64,000 nucleotides of DNA from Prosthecobacter debontii (GCA_945860295.1 CAMAQH010000005.1:1-64000); one strand, 5' to 3'; counted from the stretch's first letter, positions 22,027 through 62,878 are shown. The notes: generated from the sequence alone by a model not told the origin. Numbers and translations: made by a program.

Positions 22027-23328
22027 TCAACGCACCATAATCTTCACGCCAATGGACTTGTAGCCATTGATGATTTCGGCGGCGATCTTCTCATAGCCGC
22101 GCTCTTCGACCAGGATACCAAGATTTTTAAATGGGGCCGACTCTGACTTCATATCTGGCGGGGGAAAGTCCTTGGGGTAGCTGAAGCGCCCACCTTCAAG
22201 GCGCTTCACGCGCGGATCGGCAAAGAAGGCCCGTAGCTCGGCGACTTGAGCGTAAATCGCATCCATAAATTTGATGAAGCGAACACCTTTCTTGTCGCCG
22301 TCCAGATGACAGAAGTAATACACCAAGAGCTGGGAGCGGTGGTACATGTCGCGCATTTTTGTCGCCGTCGCACACTCGGCATCCCACTGGTCGCGGTTCA
22401 TGGTCATCAGCGACTCTAGCTTGCCTAGATCTAACGAGAAGCCTTCCTGCTGCTGCCATTGATCCACGTCCTCCTTGATCCCGCTTTTGTGGCTATCCGC
22501 ACGAAAGGTGCCGGACTTGTAGGGCAGCATCTCCGTATATTCCGCCGTGCCCTCGATCACCCATTTCGGCAGAAAGCCCAGGTAGTCGTCCATGAGCTGA
22601 TGAGTGATTTCATGGACCAGCGTGCCGTTGCTGTAATTATCGTCTTTGAAATAAGTCTGGCCGCGCTTCTCCATGCCAAGGCTCTGGAAGGGGATCTTGA
22701 AAATCTTGTCCCCGCTGCTGTAAACGCCGCCCGACATCTCAGGTCCGCCAGCGGCCACGTAATCTGCCCGCGTTTCATAGAGCGCGGCGATAAAACGCGG
22801 CCTTCCCTCAGGTGGTTTGCAAAGGACACCCCATGGCAGCGCCTCGATCAACGATTTCGTGGATTCAAAGGTGCGCGCCACTTCCTTCATCACACTGCCG
22901 GCCAGTTTCGCCTGCGAGCTAAATTCAAAGGCCTCCGACTGGTAAATGTACTTCCGCGCCTCTGGGTTTTCAGACGTCACAGCAATCTCAATCGAGCGTG
23001 CTGGCACCACGACATTTCCCGGCCAAGTGCGCTTCTCGACAGGCTGTCTATTTGCTGTAGCAGCCGCCGGTGCTGCCGGCGTGGCTGCTCCGCCGCCGCC
23101 CGCCTGTGTTTTAGCAAAAGCCTGATCATCCGCGCTCAGCCGCGTCAGCGGAAACGGCACCGTCTGACCATTGACCAGCTTCAGCAGCACACTGTCATCC
23201 TTCATGCCGACGAACTCAGCCTCGACCTTGCGCCCGGTAGAGTCAGTCCATGGCCGTGGCCCCGCCACCAGGGCAGATGAACCCAAACAAACCAGCAACA
23301 AGCTCAGATGACGGGGGGATTTTTGCAT
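22027..23328 (-). CDS. Secreted HEXXH metallopeptidase-like protein with SHD1-like N-terminal domain
   Basis: 433 residues with a signal peptide (LSLLLVCLGSSALVAG). Residues about 25-75 (RPWTDSTGRKVEAEFVGMKDDSVLLKL and PFPLTRLSADDQAF) match the SHD1-like beta module frequent in planctomycete/verrucomicrobial secreted proteins. An Ala/Pro linker leads to the catalytic region: NGTLVHEITHQLMDDYLG gives HEITH, and WVIEGTAEY supplies a downstream Glu, as in gluzincin/peptidase MA-like proteins. Zinc peptidase activity outside the cytoplasm is inferred; the substrate is unknown. Confidence 0.8.
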   Translation of the reverse strand: MQKSPRHLSLLLVCLGSSALVAGPRPWTDSTGRKVEAEFVGMKDDSVLLKLVNGQTVPFPLTRLSADDQAFAKTQAGGGGAATPAAPAAATANRQPVEKRTWPGNVVVPARSIEIAVTSENPEARKYIYQSEAFEFSSQAKLAGSVMKEVARTFESTKSLIEALPWGVLCKPPEGRPRFIAALYETRADYVAAGGPEMSGGVYSSGDKIFKIPFQSLGMEKRGQTYFKDDNYSNGTLVHEITHQLMDDYLGFLPKWVIEGTAEYTEMLPYKSGTFRADSHKSGIKEDVDQWQQQEGFSLDLGKLESLMTMNRDQWDAECATATKMRDMYHRSQLLVYYFCHLDGDKKGVRFIKFMDAIYAQVAELRAFFADPRVKRLEGGRFSYPKDFPPPDMKSESAPFKNLGILVEERGYEKIAAEIINGYKSIGVKIMVR

Positions 23329-56393: not shown

Positions 56394-56506
56394 ATGATCT
56401 ATCAAGTAATGGGTTGAGGAGCGCACACTGACCAAAGACAGCCAACACGCAACCGTGCAGACATGCCTTCTTGCCAAAACGATCCGCGCTGCCCACACTT
56501 CGCGCC

Positions 56507-58288
56507 ATGCTTTTCCTGCGGCCACTCCTAGCCATCTACCTCTGCTTTTTCGCAGTGCCAGTGGTCTGGGTAGCTGCTGAGGAAACATACTCGTCAGGAG
56601 ATATGTCGTGGACGGTGGATTCCTATGGCGTGCTGAAGACCAAGCAATGGCCTCTCGTTTCTACGCTCTTGCTAACAATCGAGGAGTCCATCCGCAAAGA
56701 CCAGAAAACAGCCAAGCCCGCCGCTCAAAAACCACTGCCAGAACTCCACTATGGTTCGGATCGTAGTGTGACGCTGCTCGCCATGTCAGAAGATAAAAAG
56801 AAGCTGACACAGACCATCCAACGCAGCGTGCGCTTTGATCAGGAACGCAAGGCCGTGCGTGTGCTCGATATCATCACCAGCGCCACTGACGAAACTCAAT
56901 ATCTCACTTTGCGCTATCAAACACGCTGGCAGCCAACCATCGTGCCGAAGCTCGCCAAACCACTTTTTATCAGCAAGCCTCCTGAAGCCAAATCACCCAT
57001 TGCGGCACTCATTGCCGCGCAGGAAACCACGCTGCCGGTGATGTACCAACTCTTTGGAAATGATGCCAAAGGCTGGAAGCGCAAGATCACCGTTCATCAG
57101 GATCTGCTCGACTGGACTTACACCGGAGTTCTACCAGCTAAGCAGCGTGTCGTATTGCTTCATTGGCTCACCTTTACCAATGATGTCAAAGCCGACACCG
57201 TGGACAAAGTGATCAGCACTTTGACCTCAGGTGGCATGCCAGAGGAAGACTCGCTGTCGGAAGATATTTTGAAGGAACTAGCCAACTTTCCCATTCCCGT
57301 CAAAGCGCCAGCCAGCAGCAAGATCGCCACGAACGAGAGCAAGCCGAAGCTCGCTTTTGTGAAAGCTTTCGCTGATGCAATTCACGTCGATTTTTCCACT
57401 GAAGTGGATCAACTCATGTTCACGTCCGGGGCCGTTGTAAAAGGAACATTTGATGCAAAAAAAGTGCAGTTGGAAAACATGGGGCGAATGCGTGAGCTAC
57501 CGCTGGCGCAGATCGCTGCCATCCGAGTTAAGCCCTCGCCGTCACGGGTATTTCTGCGGGATGGAACGGTCCTCAGTGGCCGACTAAGTTGGGCGTCCGC
57601 CACCTTTCAAAGTCAGACACTCGGCAAGCTGGCGCTCAAGCCCGAGCGCCTAGATCAGCTCGTACTCAGATCTGCTGCTGCCGATGGCAAAATGGACTTC
57701 AAACCTGTCGCTTGGATCGCGGAAGACATTGATGGTCAGATCATCGCATGGAAGACATTTCCACTAAAGCCATTGCAGACAACCTGGGCTGGTGGACGAC
57801 TCATTTTGCAATGGAGAGACATCGCGAGCATTCATCGACTGCCAGCGCCAGCGATGGAGCACTCACTCATTCTGCGTGATAGCAGTCATCTACATGTATG
57901 GCTCGACCTTAAGGAGTCTGACTCAGCGCTCAATGACTGCGCCGGACTCGCCAGCACACCCGAGGCACTGCTTTCAATCCTGGACGGCAATGCGCCGACT
58001 TCCGCGATCATTGACTCAGCCCTGATGCTTGCAGATGGCAGTGTGCTCGTCGGTGATTTTGCAGAGCCGAATCTTTCTTGGATAACTAAAGATGGCGTCA
58101 TTCAAATCCGAGCCACTGACATCCAGCAGATCAAAAGCAACGCACCGCTTTATCAAATCAAGACCACTACTGACACTCATCTGTCAGGCCAGCCCGTCGC
58201 CCCCACACTTTCCTGGAAGCGCGACAACCAAACCATGAATGTGCCCTGGCGTCTGATCACCGAACTCAAACCAGCCACCAAGCCATGA
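56507..58288 (+). CDS. Secreted protein with repeated beta modules (first of pair)
   Basis: 593 residues from ATG 56507 (MLFLRPLLAIYLCFFAVPVVWVAA), a signal peptide. Residues about 25-250 form a distinct N-terminal domain (TQTIQRSVRFDQERKAVRVLDI, YLTLRYQTRWQP) with no family. From about 300 on a module of about 40 residues recurs: VDQLMFTSGAVVKGTF, SRVFLRDGTVLSGRL, ALMLADGSVLVGDF, each followed by a beta strand and ending in an L-x-x-L/I-x-x-I helix-like turn (RLDQLVLR, DIQQIKS). At least four copies are visible. The stop overlaps the next gene (ATGA). Function unknown. Confidence 0.8.
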   Translation: MLFLRPLLAIYLCFFAVPVVWVAAEETYSSGDMSWTVDSYGVLKTKQWPLVSTLLLTIEESIRKDQKTAKPAAQKPLPELHYGSDRSVTLLAMSEDKKKLTQTIQRSVRFDQERKAVRVLDIITSATDETQYLTLRYQTRWQPTIVPKLAKPLFISKPPEAKSPIAALIAAQETTLPVMYQLFGNDAKGWKRKITVHQDLLDWTYTGVLPAKQRVVLLHWLTFTNDVKADTVDKVISTLTSGGMPEEDSLSEDILKELANFPIPVKAPASSKIATNESKPKLAFVKAFADAIHVDFSTEVDQLMFTSGAVVKGTFDAKKVQLENMGRMRELPLAQIAAIRVKPSPSRVFLRDGTVLSGRLSWASATFQSQTLGKLALKPERLDQLVLRSAAADGKMDFKPVAWIAEDIDGQIIAWKTFPLKPLQTTWAGGRLILQWRDIASIHRLPAPAMEHSLILRDSSHLHVWLDLKESDSALNDCAGLASTPEALLSILDGNAPTSAIIDSALMLADGSVLVGDFAEPNLSWITKDGVIQIRATDIQQIKSNAPLYQIKTTTDTHLSGQPVAPTLSWKRDNQTMNVPWRLITELKPATKP

Positions 58289-60235
58289 GGTGCGGACTCC
58301 TCCTGTCCTTGTTACCCCTGCTGTCCGTGACCGCGCAGCAGGCCACGGTGCCCTATCAGCCATCTGTGCTCACTGATAAGAAAGGACACGAGTGGTACAT
58401 CGAACAAAACGGCGGTCTCCAGCGCAATAGCAGCGGAGCTTCGATGATCGGAAACTGCATGATGCTACAGTTCGGCAATCAGCAGTTCTACAGCCAGCAG
58501 CCGATGACGACAGCGGATGGCAAAGAGCTTTTCATGAATGCTCAGCAGCCGATCAATGGACTCAGCATCACCCGCCGAGTCACCTTCATGGAGCGTGATG
58601 GTGGCCTGCGTTATGTGGATGAATTTCTCAACACCACGAGTCGTGACATCAACGCGACGGTGGAGCTGCGGCACAGTTTTAATAACACCGCCAAGTCACT
58701 GCTCACAAACCTTGGCCGCCTCATGAAAGACACGCTTGAGCCTACCGAGACAGGCTTCATCGGCCTACCAGGCGAATCAGATACGCATGCACCTGCGCTG
58801 CTTTTCACCGTCCGCGCGCCGAAGTCACCCCTACCAATGCGACTGACGGTGCAGAATAATAATCAGATCTCCGTCTTCCACACGCTGACCATTCCGGCAG
58901 GCAAGTCACAGACACTGGTGCATGGCATCGCTCAGATCAAAGTCGGGGCCAAGAATACGCCGGAGGAAATCACCAAAGCCTGCCAACCCTTCAGCATGGA
59001 TCGGCTAACCAAAGGCTTATCCAAAGCTACACTCAAAGCCGCTGCGAATCTCGGTGGTGTAATCGGCAGCTTTGGCTTGAATGAGTGGTTCCCAGCTGAG
59101 TTCTGGGGTGTAACCGCTAGCAGTTCAGATCAGCTCGCTCTCGGTAAAGACTCGCTCCTGAAAGGCAAGGCTACTTCAACCAGCGTGGCCATGATAAGAG
59201 ACTCTGAAAAAACGAGTATCGAGTGGGATCGCATCGCTGCAATCGCTGGCTCAAGTCACACTCAAGAGCCACGAGGCTGGCTCTGGCTGCGCGATGGACA
59301 ACGCTGGCAAGGCACGCTGGAGATGACCGACCTGCACTTCACTCTCATCAGCGGAGCCGATCTACCTTTGACTCAACTGGATCGTCTCATCCTGACTAAA
59401 TCCAGCGAGGCAACCCCTGCCCTGCTCAACACACTCATCGAACTCTGGAGCGGTGAACGTCTGGCGATCAAGCCACAGGGCGATCTTGTAGGCAGCTCGC
59501 CTTGGGGTCGCTTGGCCGTGCCCTGGCCGGAGGTCGTTGCCATGCAGAGTCAAAATAGTGAGACTCTCGGCGGCATGTTGTTTCTACAAAATGGCACTCA
59601 CGTCCGCATGATGCCTGAGCCTGGAAAGGTCACGCTCCAAACCACCAGCGTTGGCGCGCGGGACATCGACCTCAGCCAACTCCGTCACATCATCAAGCCG
59701 CAGGCAGCCAAGATGACTGAAGAAGACAGCGAACCCGCCAGTAGCTTCGTGGAACTCACGGGTGAACAACGTCTCGTTAGTCGCGTCACCACCCCTTCGC
59801 TGACCCTCATTACGACTTCTGGCCCGATCAAACTGGCACCCTCGAATCTCCGTGAGATGAAGGACATCAGCGATGACGCAGCTTCTGGCACCCAGCTTTT
59901 TAAGGCCGAACTATGGGGCGGAGGCCACATCACCGGCAGCCTTGAGGAAAGCCACATCCGTGTCGAAGAGCGCGGCTTCGCGTGGGACATTCCAGTGCGC
60001 CATCTCAGACGTCTATCGAATCCCATTCCTGTGACCGACAACGCGCTGATGCTCCGCATTGGCCAGCTATTACAAGACCTAGCGAACCCGCAGTGGAAAG
60101 TGCGTAAGACTGCCAACTCTGCTCTCCGTGAGTTGGGACCGCTGGCTAAAGGTAGTCTGCAAGAAGCACTCAAAAACAGCCACCGACGCCGAAGTCGCGC
60201 GCCGTCTTGAAGACCTACTTCAGACAGAAGAATGA
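58285..60235 (+). CDS. Secreted protein with repeated beta modules and C-terminal HEAT-like end; frameshift near 3' end
   Basis: The ORF gives 641 residues ending HRRRSRAPS at 60210. A signal peptide (LLLSLLPLLSVTAQ) is followed by an N-terminal domain with DEFLNTTSRDINATVELRHSF, then the same module as in the upstream gene: GWLWLRDGQRWQGTLEM, GMLFLQNGTHVRMMPE, SFVELTGEQRLVSRV and FKAELWGGGHITGSL. Next comes WKVRKTANSALRELGPLAKGSLQEALKN. If one base is dropped near 60181 the reading continues TDAEVARRLEDLLQTEE and stops at 60235, completing the HEAT-like unit. Listed end assumes the restored frame. Starts within the upstream stop codon. Confidence 0.75.
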
Positions 60236-60263: not shown

Positions 60264-60533
60264 ATGACTACAGACACTCCCGACAACACCGAACGCAATC
60301 TTGGCACTCAACCCCTTGACGCCATCCTTATTGAGCAAGCACTCGGCAATCACGAAATCGTCGCCGCTAGCTCCGAGCCAATCACACACAAAGCCGTGCA
60401 GCGCGCACGCAAAGGCCGCCGACTGACTGGCCACATGCAGCGCCGCATCACTGCCGCAGTGAACAAGGCTGTCGCACTGCAAGGCAAGACGCTGGAACGC
60501 GAATGGCAGGTGAGTGACTTGTTCACTTACTAG
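60264..60533 (+). CDS. Small basic protein, possible nucleic-acid-binding
   Basis: 89 residues. The core ITHKAVQRARKGRRLTGHMQRRITAAVNKAV looks like two helices with a basic turn, and the C-terminus reads WQVSDLFTY. This type of short helical protein with a K-x-x-x-x-R-x-x-K-G-R-R-L signature may bind nucleic acid, but no named family is claimed. It is 29 bp past the corrected stop of the preceding gene, so may belong to the same operon. It converges on the sensor kinase gene. Confidence 0.6.
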   Translation: MTTDTPDNTERNLGTQPLDAILIEQALGNHEIVAASSEPITHKAVQRARKGRRLTGHMQRRITAAVNKAVALQGKTLEREWQVSDLFTY

Positions 60534-60539
60534 ACCCGT

Positions 60540-61988
60540 TCATTTCTTGGATAGGATCGTCATTTGGACTTCAAGTCCACTTGGCTCAAGTAAGCGGGCC
60601 GTGACGCTGCCTTTGCAAGCTTCGATGCATCTTTTCACGATAGCGAGACCGAGTCCGCTGCCGCCTGTGTGGCGGGCGCGGGCGACTTCAGGACGGTAAA
60701 ATGGCTCAAACAAGCGCGGCAAGGTTTCTGGTGGGACCCCCGGCCCTTGATCAGCAATCTTAATGATCGTTTGGCCATTTTCCTGAGAGGCCTGAATATG
60801 GATCGGCCCAGCGTGAGCCGCATAGCGGACTGCGTTGCGCAGCACATTGCCGAGCGCGCGATCAAGCGCTTTGTACAAAGTGTGAAGGGACAAATTAGCA
60901 GGCACATCGACAACCACACCGATCCCGGCAGCTTCGCGAGTGATGATTTGCTCGATGAGTTCGCGCAGATGAATTTCAACAGGTGTCTCACGATCAGGCA
61001 ACGCCTCGGCTTTTGAAAAAGTCAGCACTTCCTCAACAAGCTTAGCCATGTGTTGGAGTTCACCGTCGAGCTTCTTCAGGTAAGTGGATTGATCTGGAGT
61101 GCTGCGTTGCTCGACGATGCCTAGCGCCATCTGCATCCGGGCGATGGGCGAGCAAAGCTCATGAGCAACATCAGCCGTAATACGCCGCTGCTGCATGACA
61201 TAGTCACCGAGCTGCCCAGCCATCGCATTCACAGAAGTAGCAAGTTCACCAAGTTCATCGCTGCGTTTCTCTGGCACCCGCGCCTGAAAGTGACCATGCG
61301 CGATTGCATGAGCAGAACGATTGAGTTGGCTAATGGATCGTGTGATGCCACGAACGAAAGGCAGCCACAAAAGGGCAGACACGACTAGACAGGCAGCACC
61401 GAGTCCGATCCATGGCCAAAGGTCGATAAATAGCCCACCGCCTGTGACCGATTCAGAAGCCATCACCAGCGTCAGCGGCATGAAATCAGGGCCATAGGCC
61501 AAGTCGAGATGGATACCCGCCCAATACCGCGCCGGACTTCCAGTGCGCTGCATGAATCGCGGCTTTGGCGGCGCATCAGGCGGGCGGCCTTTGGCTTGAG
61601 GAGACTGCTTCGGAGGTGGTCTCCGAGCCGACGGCCGATCACCAGCAGGTCGCTTATCAGCAATTTTTGGCATCAAATCGGTAGGCACATCTAAAGGCTC
61701 TCCCATGACCTGAATTCCCCCACGATTAAACAACGCGAAGGCGACTCCATAGGCCTCGTCATACTGCTTCAGTGCGGCTGCCCACTCTCTTTCAGGCATG
61801 TGTGTAAGCTCATTGGTAACCTTATCACCAATCAGTGAAATCTGATCTCCTGCTGGCCCGAGAAGCATCCAATCGAGACTCATGTGAAACTGCATTTGCA
61901 GGAATCCAACCACGAGCAAAACAAGGATCAGCACATTTACCCCCAGCCAGGCCAACACTTTAATATAGATGGGAATTCCGCGACTCAT
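60540..61988 (-). CDS. Sensor histidine kinase (CpxA/EnvZ-like)
   Basis: 482 residues from ATG 61988 (MSRGIPIYIKVLAWLGVNVL). Two membrane helices (about 12-32 and 165-185) bracket a periplasmic domain with an unusual Pro/Lys/Arg-rich stretch (RPSARRPPPKQSPQAKGRPP). Then HAMP (LPFVRGITRSISQLNRSAHAI), H-box ADVAHELCSPIARMQMAL with the phospho-His, N-box LGNVLRNAVRYAAH, G1 IADQGPGVPPE and G2 GGSGLGLAIVKR. Its start is 1 bp after the response-regulator stop. Confidence 0.95.
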   Translation of the reverse strand: MSRGIPIYIKVLAWLGVNVLILVLLVVGFLQMQFHMSLDWMLLGPAGDQISLIGDKVTNELTHMPEREWAAALKQYDEAYGVAFALFNRGGIQVMGEPLDVPTDLMPKIADKRPAGDRPSARRPPPKQSPQAKGRPPDAPPKPRFMQRTGSPARYWAGIHLDLAYGPDFMPLTLVMASESVTGGGLFIDLWPWIGLGAACLVVSALLWLPFVRGITRSISQLNRSAHAIAHGHFQARVPEKRSDELGELATSVNAMAGQLGDYVMQQRRITADVAHELCSPIARMQMALGIVEQRSTPDQSTYLKKLDGELQHMAKLVEEVLTFSKAEALPDRETPVEIHLRELIEQIITREAAGIGVVVDVPANLSLHTLYKALDRALGNVLRNAVRYAAHAGPIHIQASQENGQTIIKIADQGPGVPPETLPRLFEPFYRPEVARARHTGGSGLGLAIVKRCIEACKGSVTARLLEPSGLEVQMTILSKK

Positions 61989-61989
61989 G

Positions 61990-62688
61990 TTAGCGGGTGG
62001 GAGCGATGAGTTGATAGCCGTATCCACGCACCGTCTTGATAAACTGTGGATTTTTTGGGTCATCACCGAGCTTCTTACGGAGCGTGGAAATGTGCATGTC
62101 GATGGCACGATCAAAGACATCCCATTCTCGATCAGCGACCTCTTCAATGAGCTGTTCGCGAGTCTTCACGCGTCCGTGCGCCTTGGCCAGCGAGATGAGT
62201 AGCCCAAACTCCGCTGGTGTGAGCGTAAGCGCTTCGTCCCCCAAAACGACACCATGGGATTCGGGATTAATGCGCAACGGACCGAAGATGATTTCCTGCA
62301 TCGGAGCCTGAGGTGTGGTTTCCGCCACCCAACCCGTGCGCCGCATCACCGCTCGGAGCCGGGCCAAAAGCTCACGCGACGAAAAAGTCTTCGGCAAATA
62401 ATCATCCGCTCCCAGTTCTAGTCCGACTACACGGTCCACCTCATCACCACGCCCTGTCAGCATCAGGACGGGCACTTTGGATTTAGCTCGAATCCGGCGC
62501 AGGACCTCAAAGCCATCAAAGCCCGGCATCATCACATCAAGAATAATCGCGTGCCAGACCTCAGCCGTCGCACGAGTCGCCCCATTGATGCCATCGTGCT
62601 CAGCTTCGACCTGGAAGCCCATCGGCCCAAGATAGTCTGCCACGAGCTGGCAGAGTTCCGCGTCGTCGTCGATGATCAAAATGCGCAT
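61990..62688 (-). CDS. OmpR/CpxR-type response regulator
   Basis: 232 residues from ATG 62688 (MRILIIDDDAELCQLVADYL). The receiver domain has the acidic pair DDD, the phospho-Asp in AIILDVMMPGFDGFEVL (about 51), Thr in MLTGRGDE and Lys in DYLPKTFSSRE. The C-terminal winged helix (LTPAEFGLLISLAKAHGRVKTREQLIEEV, VRGYGYQLI) binds DNA. It forms a two-gene operon with the kinase. Envelope stress sensing is inferred only from similarity to CpxRA organisation. Confidence 0.95.
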   Translation of the reverse strand: MRILIIDDDAELCQLVADYLGPMGFQVEAEHDGINGATRATAEVWHAIILDVMMPGFDGFEVLRRIRAKSKVPVLMLTGRGDEVDRVVGLELGADDYLPKTFSSRELLARLRAVMRRTGWVAETTPQAPMQEIIFGPLRINPESHGVVLGDEALTLTPAEFGLLISLAKAHGRVKTREQLIEEVADREWDVFDRAIDMHISTLRKKLGDDPKNPQFIKTVRGYGYQLIAPTR

Positions 62689-62878
62689 GAAGGAAGTCAC
62701 ATACCAACTATCACCAGTCCCATCTTTCAGAGCGAGTTTCTTTACCGCATACTGACAAATCTCTCCTGACAACGACTCCATCAAACAGTCTCATCAAGAC
62801 CCAATTTCCCCAGCCCGTGACAATTCTTTAATTTAGTTTTGACATGCCGAACGCAATCAGACAGTCTCACTCCACGAT

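Follow-up and report, generated by a model that had tools for sequence, protein, structure and literature searches.

Two overlapping genes, termed P1 and P2, lie on the plus strand of the analysed window, a stretch of 64,000 nucleotides from Prosthecobacter debontii (GCA_945860295.1, CAMAQH010000005.1:1-64000; Table 1). As judged from their N-terminal sequences, both products carry probable export signals, in agreement with the original prediction of secreted proteins. The identical ATGA overlap between the P1 stop and the P2 start was found in six relatives (G049, G018, G029, G058, G010, G449), and the pair order is conserved as well. Neither P1 nor P2 reached any family in Pfam or NCBIfam. 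In the window the two genes form an isolated pair, flanked by a dehydrogenase-like gene on one side and a small conserved gene on the other. The small gene downstream of P2 (89 aa, 60264-60533, plus strand), which also adjoins P2 in G018 and G054, gave no Pfam or NCBIfam match. A histidine kinase and a response regulator (60540-62784, minus strand) face the pair and are also found beside it in G049.

The end of P2 had been placed at 60235; this position is out of frame, and the open frame stops at 60210. In relatives, the C-terminus of P2 reads ...LQEALKxSTDAEVxRRLEELL..., and its counterpart in the window, TDAEVARRLEDLLQTEE*, is displaced by one frame. Because the out-of-frame residues up to 60235 agree with the C-terminal end of all aligned relatives, the window sequence contains a one-base frameshift in P2.

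Table 1. Features of the P1/P2 locus, in positions of the window.
Feature	Position	Strand	Basis or remark
P1 gene	56507..58288	+	593 aa; alternative TTG start possible at 56471
P1 probable export signal, ~residues 1-23	56507..56575	+	hydrophobic N-terminus, A-A-E junction in the sequence; pLDDT <50 at residues 1-32
P1 supersandwich N-domain (galactose-mutarotase-like)	56603..57226	+	Foldseek; colinear with P2 N-domain
P1 barrel module 1	57398..57529	+	model, profile comparison, HMM
P1 barrel module 2 (RVFLRDGTVLSGRL)	57536..57673	+	model, profile comparison, HMM
P1 barrel module 3, divergent, low pLDDT	57698..57841	+	profile match to P2 module 3 at 95.3%
P1 barrel module 4, partial: first two strands, then helical insert	57857..57925	+	model, profile comparison
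P1 barrel module 5 (ALMLADGSVLVGDF)	58010..58138	+	model, profile comparison, HMM
P1 barrel module 6	58145..58276	+	model, profile comparison, HMM
ATGA overlap, P1 stop/P2 start (4 bp)	58285..58288	+	
P2 gene, open frame in window sequence	58285..60210	+	641 aa; last 9 residues out of frame versus all relatives
P2 probable export signal, ~residues 1-17	58285..58335	+	sequence
P2 supersandwich N-domain (galactose-mutarotase-like)	58342..59010	+	Foldseek
P2 barrel module 1	59119..59253	+	five strands in model; profile comparison, HMM
P2 barrel module 2 (WLWLRDGQRWQGTL)	59269..59403	+	model, profile comparison, HMM
P2 barrel module 3	59425..59553	+	model, profile comparison, HMM
P2 barrel module 4	59566..59700	+	model, profile comparison, HMM
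P2 barrel module 5	59737..59868	+	model, profile comparison, HMM
P2 barrel module 6 (FKAELWGGGHITGSL)	59890..60024	+	model, profile comparison, HMM
P2 HEAT-like helical repeat, shortened by frameshift	60040..60180	+	model helices 586-599, 604-617, 619-636
P2 one-base frameshift (near 60170-60183) and displaced conserved C-terminus	60170..60235	+	alignment with relatives

Paralogy and domain architecture of P1 and P2

Whole-protein profiles of P1 and P2 aligned end to end (probability 99.9, E 1e-33, 555 columns). Six candidate copies of the tandem module were cut from each protein and compared by profile-profile comparison with each other and with control blocks from the N-domains. Module-module pairs gave a median score of 18.1 (73% of 66 pairs above 15) versus 7.8 for module-control pairs (1% of 132 pairs above 15), which bears out several copies of a single module in both proteins. 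The best matches between the proteins were largely colinear, with modules 1 to 5 of P1 each pairing with the module of the same number in P2. Given the end-to-end alignment and the colinear modules, P1 and P2 derive from the duplication of one ancestral protein and do not merely share a module. At the sequence level they are full-length paralogues, each with a probable export signal, a supersandwich domain and six tandem units of ~44 residues. A module HMM detected three to six copies in each held-out relative versus one match in 480 shuffled proteins. Applied to the genome of the window, it recovered 10 of the 12 window copies, largely those on which it had been trained, and nothing beyond the copies in P1 and P2.

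AlphaFold modelled P2 (mean pLDDT 80.9) with a large β-structured N-domain, six five-stranded units and three helices. All six modules have five strands in the model, and in five of them a helical turn (HHH) precedes the fifth. The P1 model is weaker (mean pLDDT 64.8), with a P2-like pattern visible in modules 1, 2, 5, and 6. Judged by this predicted topology, the module is an SH3/Sm-like small β-barrel; matching features are the length of ~44 residues, the count of five strands, the helical turn ahead of the last of these (P2 model) and the turn joining strands 1 and 2, which is DG or NG. The original prediction had described the copies as unlike any fold that could be named, which the P2 model contradicts. 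Its description of the module as new stands insofar as no Pfam or NCBIfam family, SHD1 included, covers it, whereas the predicted fold is a known one.

In contrast to solved Sm and SH3 proteins, the modules are arranged in tandem in an exported chain, lack an N-terminal helix and have no significant sequence match to solved small barrels (best E 0.29 and 1.1). With regard to the Sm/LSm family, the model has no N-terminal helix, no Pfam Sm match was obtained and the LSM chain reached E 1.1. Assignment as an LSm RNA-binding domain was rejected, since no match was significant and the proteins carry probable export signals. SHD1 (PF03983), named beforehand as a family to which a match would speak against a new module, is common in these genomes and is likewise short and β-rich with a similar strand-turn pattern. 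This assignment was also rejected because P1 and P2 are without Pfam match and single modules reached ≤5.3% against the SHD1 profile; the pooled module profile reached 39% over 22 columns. An SHD1 domain proper (PF03983, E 9.7e-11) is encoded at 23104-23256 on the minus strand of the window.

The barrel units account for only about half of each protein, which are thus not built from the module alone as had been proposed; the remainder includes the N-domain and, in P2, also HEAT-like helices. Foldseek assigned both N-domains to the supersandwich fold (E ~1e-5 to 1e-3, probability 1.00, TM-scores modest). The P1 N-domain matched the YidC periplasmic domain (E 8e-06) and kojibiose-type phosphorylases (~1e-3); that of P2 matched GH94-type phosphorylases (E 8e-06), YidC (4e-05 to 1e-4) and aldose 1-epimerase (8e-05). 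The fold is thus that of GH94/GH65 N-domains, the YidC periplasmic domain and aldose 1-epimerase, but identity to these neighbours is mostly 5-13% and no catalytic domain follows the N-domain of P1 or P2. The helical tail of P2 matched alphaRep (HEAT) PDB chains (E 9e-05), and HEAT_2 gave matches to 8 of 13 relatives, with E 0.011 at best. In G481, a 3285-aa open frame (L152:1654-11511, minus strand) has one stretch resembling the P2 N-domain.

Elsewhere in the phylum, in other families, one or two copies of the module precede LamG domains (loci L106, L110, L116, L127) or DUF481 domains (L117, L122, L125). The module is therefore a general small exported barrel that is nameless in the libraries used, and P1 and P2 have its longest arrays among the proteins examined. 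A search of the literature on MoxR in Prosthecobacter and on comparable modules yielded nothing relevant.

Ancestral operon and co-occurrence with fam3

In the order Verrucomicrobiales, P1 and P2 belong to an operon P1-P2-fam1-MoxR-fam3-DUF58-BatA, found in Verrucomicrobiaceae and in a second family. The MoxR, DUF58, BatA, and fam3 products were assigned by their Pfam domains. fam3 is an exported protein of ~1400 aa with TPR and a PQQ/BamB-like propeller (Pfam TPR_19, TPR_14, PQQ_2), and fam1 is the membrane-protein gene of the operon, with no match in Pfam. All seven genes occur in order in G449, G453, and G729 of the second family, and with gaps in ORF labelling in G738, G726, and others. 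In Verrucomicrobium sp. BvORR034 and close relatives, P1-P2 is followed by fam1, the MoxR ATPase and fam3, and G010 has MoxR-fam3-DUF58-BatA. The operon is split into P1-P2 and fam1-MoxR-fam3 in G724 and G711, and into P1-P2-fam1 and MoxR-fam3-DUF58 in G714; in G028, P2 directly precedes a different, second-type MoxR-DUF58-BatA operon. MoxR is not a neighbour of P1/P2 and fam3 in many Prosthecobacter-type genomes, and the MoxR-DUF58-BatA grouping is absent at the window locus. What had been taken for a two-gene system is hence part of a three-protein exported set and, ancestrally, of a seven-gene MoxR operon. This operon resembles those of the Bat/aerotolerance type in its MoxR ATPase, DUF58, and BatA genes, but differs from them by the added P1, P2, and TPR-propeller genes; a BatB to BatE set was not recognised in this operon type.

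P1 homologues were found in 11 of the 68 genomes of the family sample, but not in G028 and G054, which both have P2 and fam3; the upstream gene in G054 was rejected as a divergent P1, as it matched neither P1, P2 nor the module models. In G029 and G058, P1 lacks the N-domain. Just upstream of it, G029 encodes a Ser/Thr kinase whose C-terminus carries a peptidoglycan-binding domain (L035:3505-5760), and G058 the tail of a homologous kinase (L036 9489-10496). In G060 and G061, a P1 homologue of ~1900 aa contains several fused F5/8C (discoidin-like) domains (L038:5964-11570 and L039:5721-11426).

The strongest new finding is the nearly perfect co-occurrence of P2 and fam3. In the order sample (79 genomes), P2 was found in 26 and fam3 in 25, all of which also have P2; the sole exception (G451, P2 without fam3) is an 83% complete assembly of 670 contigs. 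Within family f81, fam3 is missing from the two genomes that lack P2 (G712, G716), and all others have both. In the class sample (188 genomes), fam3 was present only in G000, the window genome, and in G064 and G527, exactly those with P1/P2. The family sample (68 genomes) had P2 in 15 (one a fragment), fam3 in 14 and both in 13 (Fisher 6e-12, kinship ignored); the three genomes that deviate are G029 and G057, both incomplete (68% and 52%), and G031, in which P2 is a broken fragment. The genes co-occur even where they are unlinked (G527, G724, G711, G714, G018, G049, G028), which is more than operon inheritance alone would give. Kinship lowers the weight of this pattern: on the fam1 tree P2 changes six times and fam3 seven times, and a kinship-aware test left only four independent pairs for which branch support was good; these agreed nearly always (p 0.125). 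P1, P2, and fam3 form a previously unnoticed exported trio that is retained or lost jointly in Verrucomicrobiales.

In the genome of the window, this set is probably damaged or decaying. Its fam3 gene (C54:6960-10930, L169) is disrupted relative to G049 by three stop codons in frame and by a single frameshift, in addition to the 3' frameshift in P2, and G031, the sister of G018, retains only a stop-bearing fragment of P2. That the pair in the window is a functionless remnant of a system being lost there is a serious possibility, to which we give slightly less than even weight and which is compatible with any explanation at the family level. Against it, P1 and 99% of P2 are open, and draft-assembly errors could look alike. 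The dN/dS values versus G049 are low (~0.11-0.17 for P2 and fam3, ~0.25 for P1), so any loss must be recent, or the defects are errors of assembly.

Possible role of the exported trio

With moderate confidence, we favour an extracytoplasmic complex of P1, P2, and fam3 that depends on the MoxR/vWA machinery for its assembly or maintenance. P1 and P2 would be paralogous scaffolds outside the cytoplasm, each headed by a supersandwich domain that is followed by six barrels in a chain, and P2 with a helical tail in addition. Joined by fam3, they would most likely make up a single complex that is either periplasmic or situated on the outer side of the envelope; the trio originated within the seven-gene operon. 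Acting with its vWA partners, the DUF58 protein and the membrane-anchored BatA, the MoxR AAA+ ATPase would probably assemble or remodel this complex, or else connect it through the inner membrane with the cytoplasm. This machinery would have assembled the complex when the operon arose and may service it still. MoxR/vWA pairs are described as chaperones that mature dedicated complexes (PMC3893208, PMC9976466). The supersandwich domains and barrels might bind an envelope glycan or protein; contact with the envelope or its glycans is hinted at by the F5/8C fusions to P1 in G060 and G061 and by the kinase with a peptidoglycan-binding domain upstream in G029.

Since P1/P2 and fam3 are not beside MoxR in many Prosthecobacter-type genomes, the link to MoxR could be historical. 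The complex would then stand alone, with the MoxR genes as mere neighbours in the ancestral operon that do not act on it. We regard this as unlikely, though it is the strongest competitor at the family level: the trio persists without MoxR linkage in G000, G018, G049, G028 (fam3), G724, and G711 (P1-P2), and fam1 is present in 66 of the 68 family genomes irrespective of the trio, but the gene order is conserved across two families and P2 adjoins a different MoxR operon in G028.

It is also conceivable, if improbable, that the supersandwich N-domain is the business end of carbohydrate-binding or carbohydrate-modifying envelope proteins in which the barrels would act as spacers. GH94/GH65-type proteins and aldose 1-epimerase are among its closest structural neighbours, P1 is fused to F5/8C domains in two genomes, barrel modules precede lectin-like LamG domains in other proteins, and just upstream of P1, G029 has the kinase with a peptidoglycan-binding domain and G058 the tail of its homologue. 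However, the equally close YidC periplasmic domain shares the fold and is, to our knowledge, no sugar enzyme; P1 of G029 and G058 dispenses with the N-domain, and no catalytic residues were identified in the N-domains.

A more speculative form of the complex, which we consider quite improbable, would be a new envelope machine of Verrucomicrobiales that the AAA+ ATPase services. In it, the barrels of each protein, six in P1 and six in P2, would form an intramolecular pseudo-hexameric ring of the Sm-like type, with the TPR-propeller protein docked on these rings. Ring closure is allowed by the six-fold number and the short linkers (~9-17 residues).

The combination of MoxR, vWA proteins and a TPR-propeller protein (fam3) recalls the ternary systems described by Kaur et al. 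2020 (PMC7159879), from which it differs in that fam3 is exported and otherwise built. The scan of the DUF58 protein and a 279-residue part of BatA revealed vWA domains and no propeller, and the MoxR P-loop of locus L045 reads GVPGLGKT versus the GXXXTAKS form frequent in those systems. As these two features, the vWA-fused propeller and the P-loop form, are missing, the operon is not a ternary system of this kind. A conflict or self-recognition system akin to them is the least probable reading: the patchy spread, the fast evolution of P1 (for one and the same genome pair, dN is 0.29 in P1 and 0.15 in P2) and the TPR-propeller protein beside MoxR and vWA genes would fit, but the vWA proteins have no fused propeller, the P-loop is ordinary, the exported proteins match no PADLOC model (the search gave only a weak MoxR match, mad8, 6.6e-05) and P1 is under net constraint, with dN well below dS.

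P1 and P2, unnamed so far, combine ordinary folds in a new architecture, and their association with a TPR-propeller protein and with a MoxR operon is likewise new. MoxR AAA+ ATPases with vWA partners are widespread, and their targets are known in few cases. The trio of P1, P2, and fam3 is a concrete candidate for a substrate or partner of the MoxR-DUF58-BatA machinery, and the six-barrel chain represents a protein family overlooked by current domain libraries.
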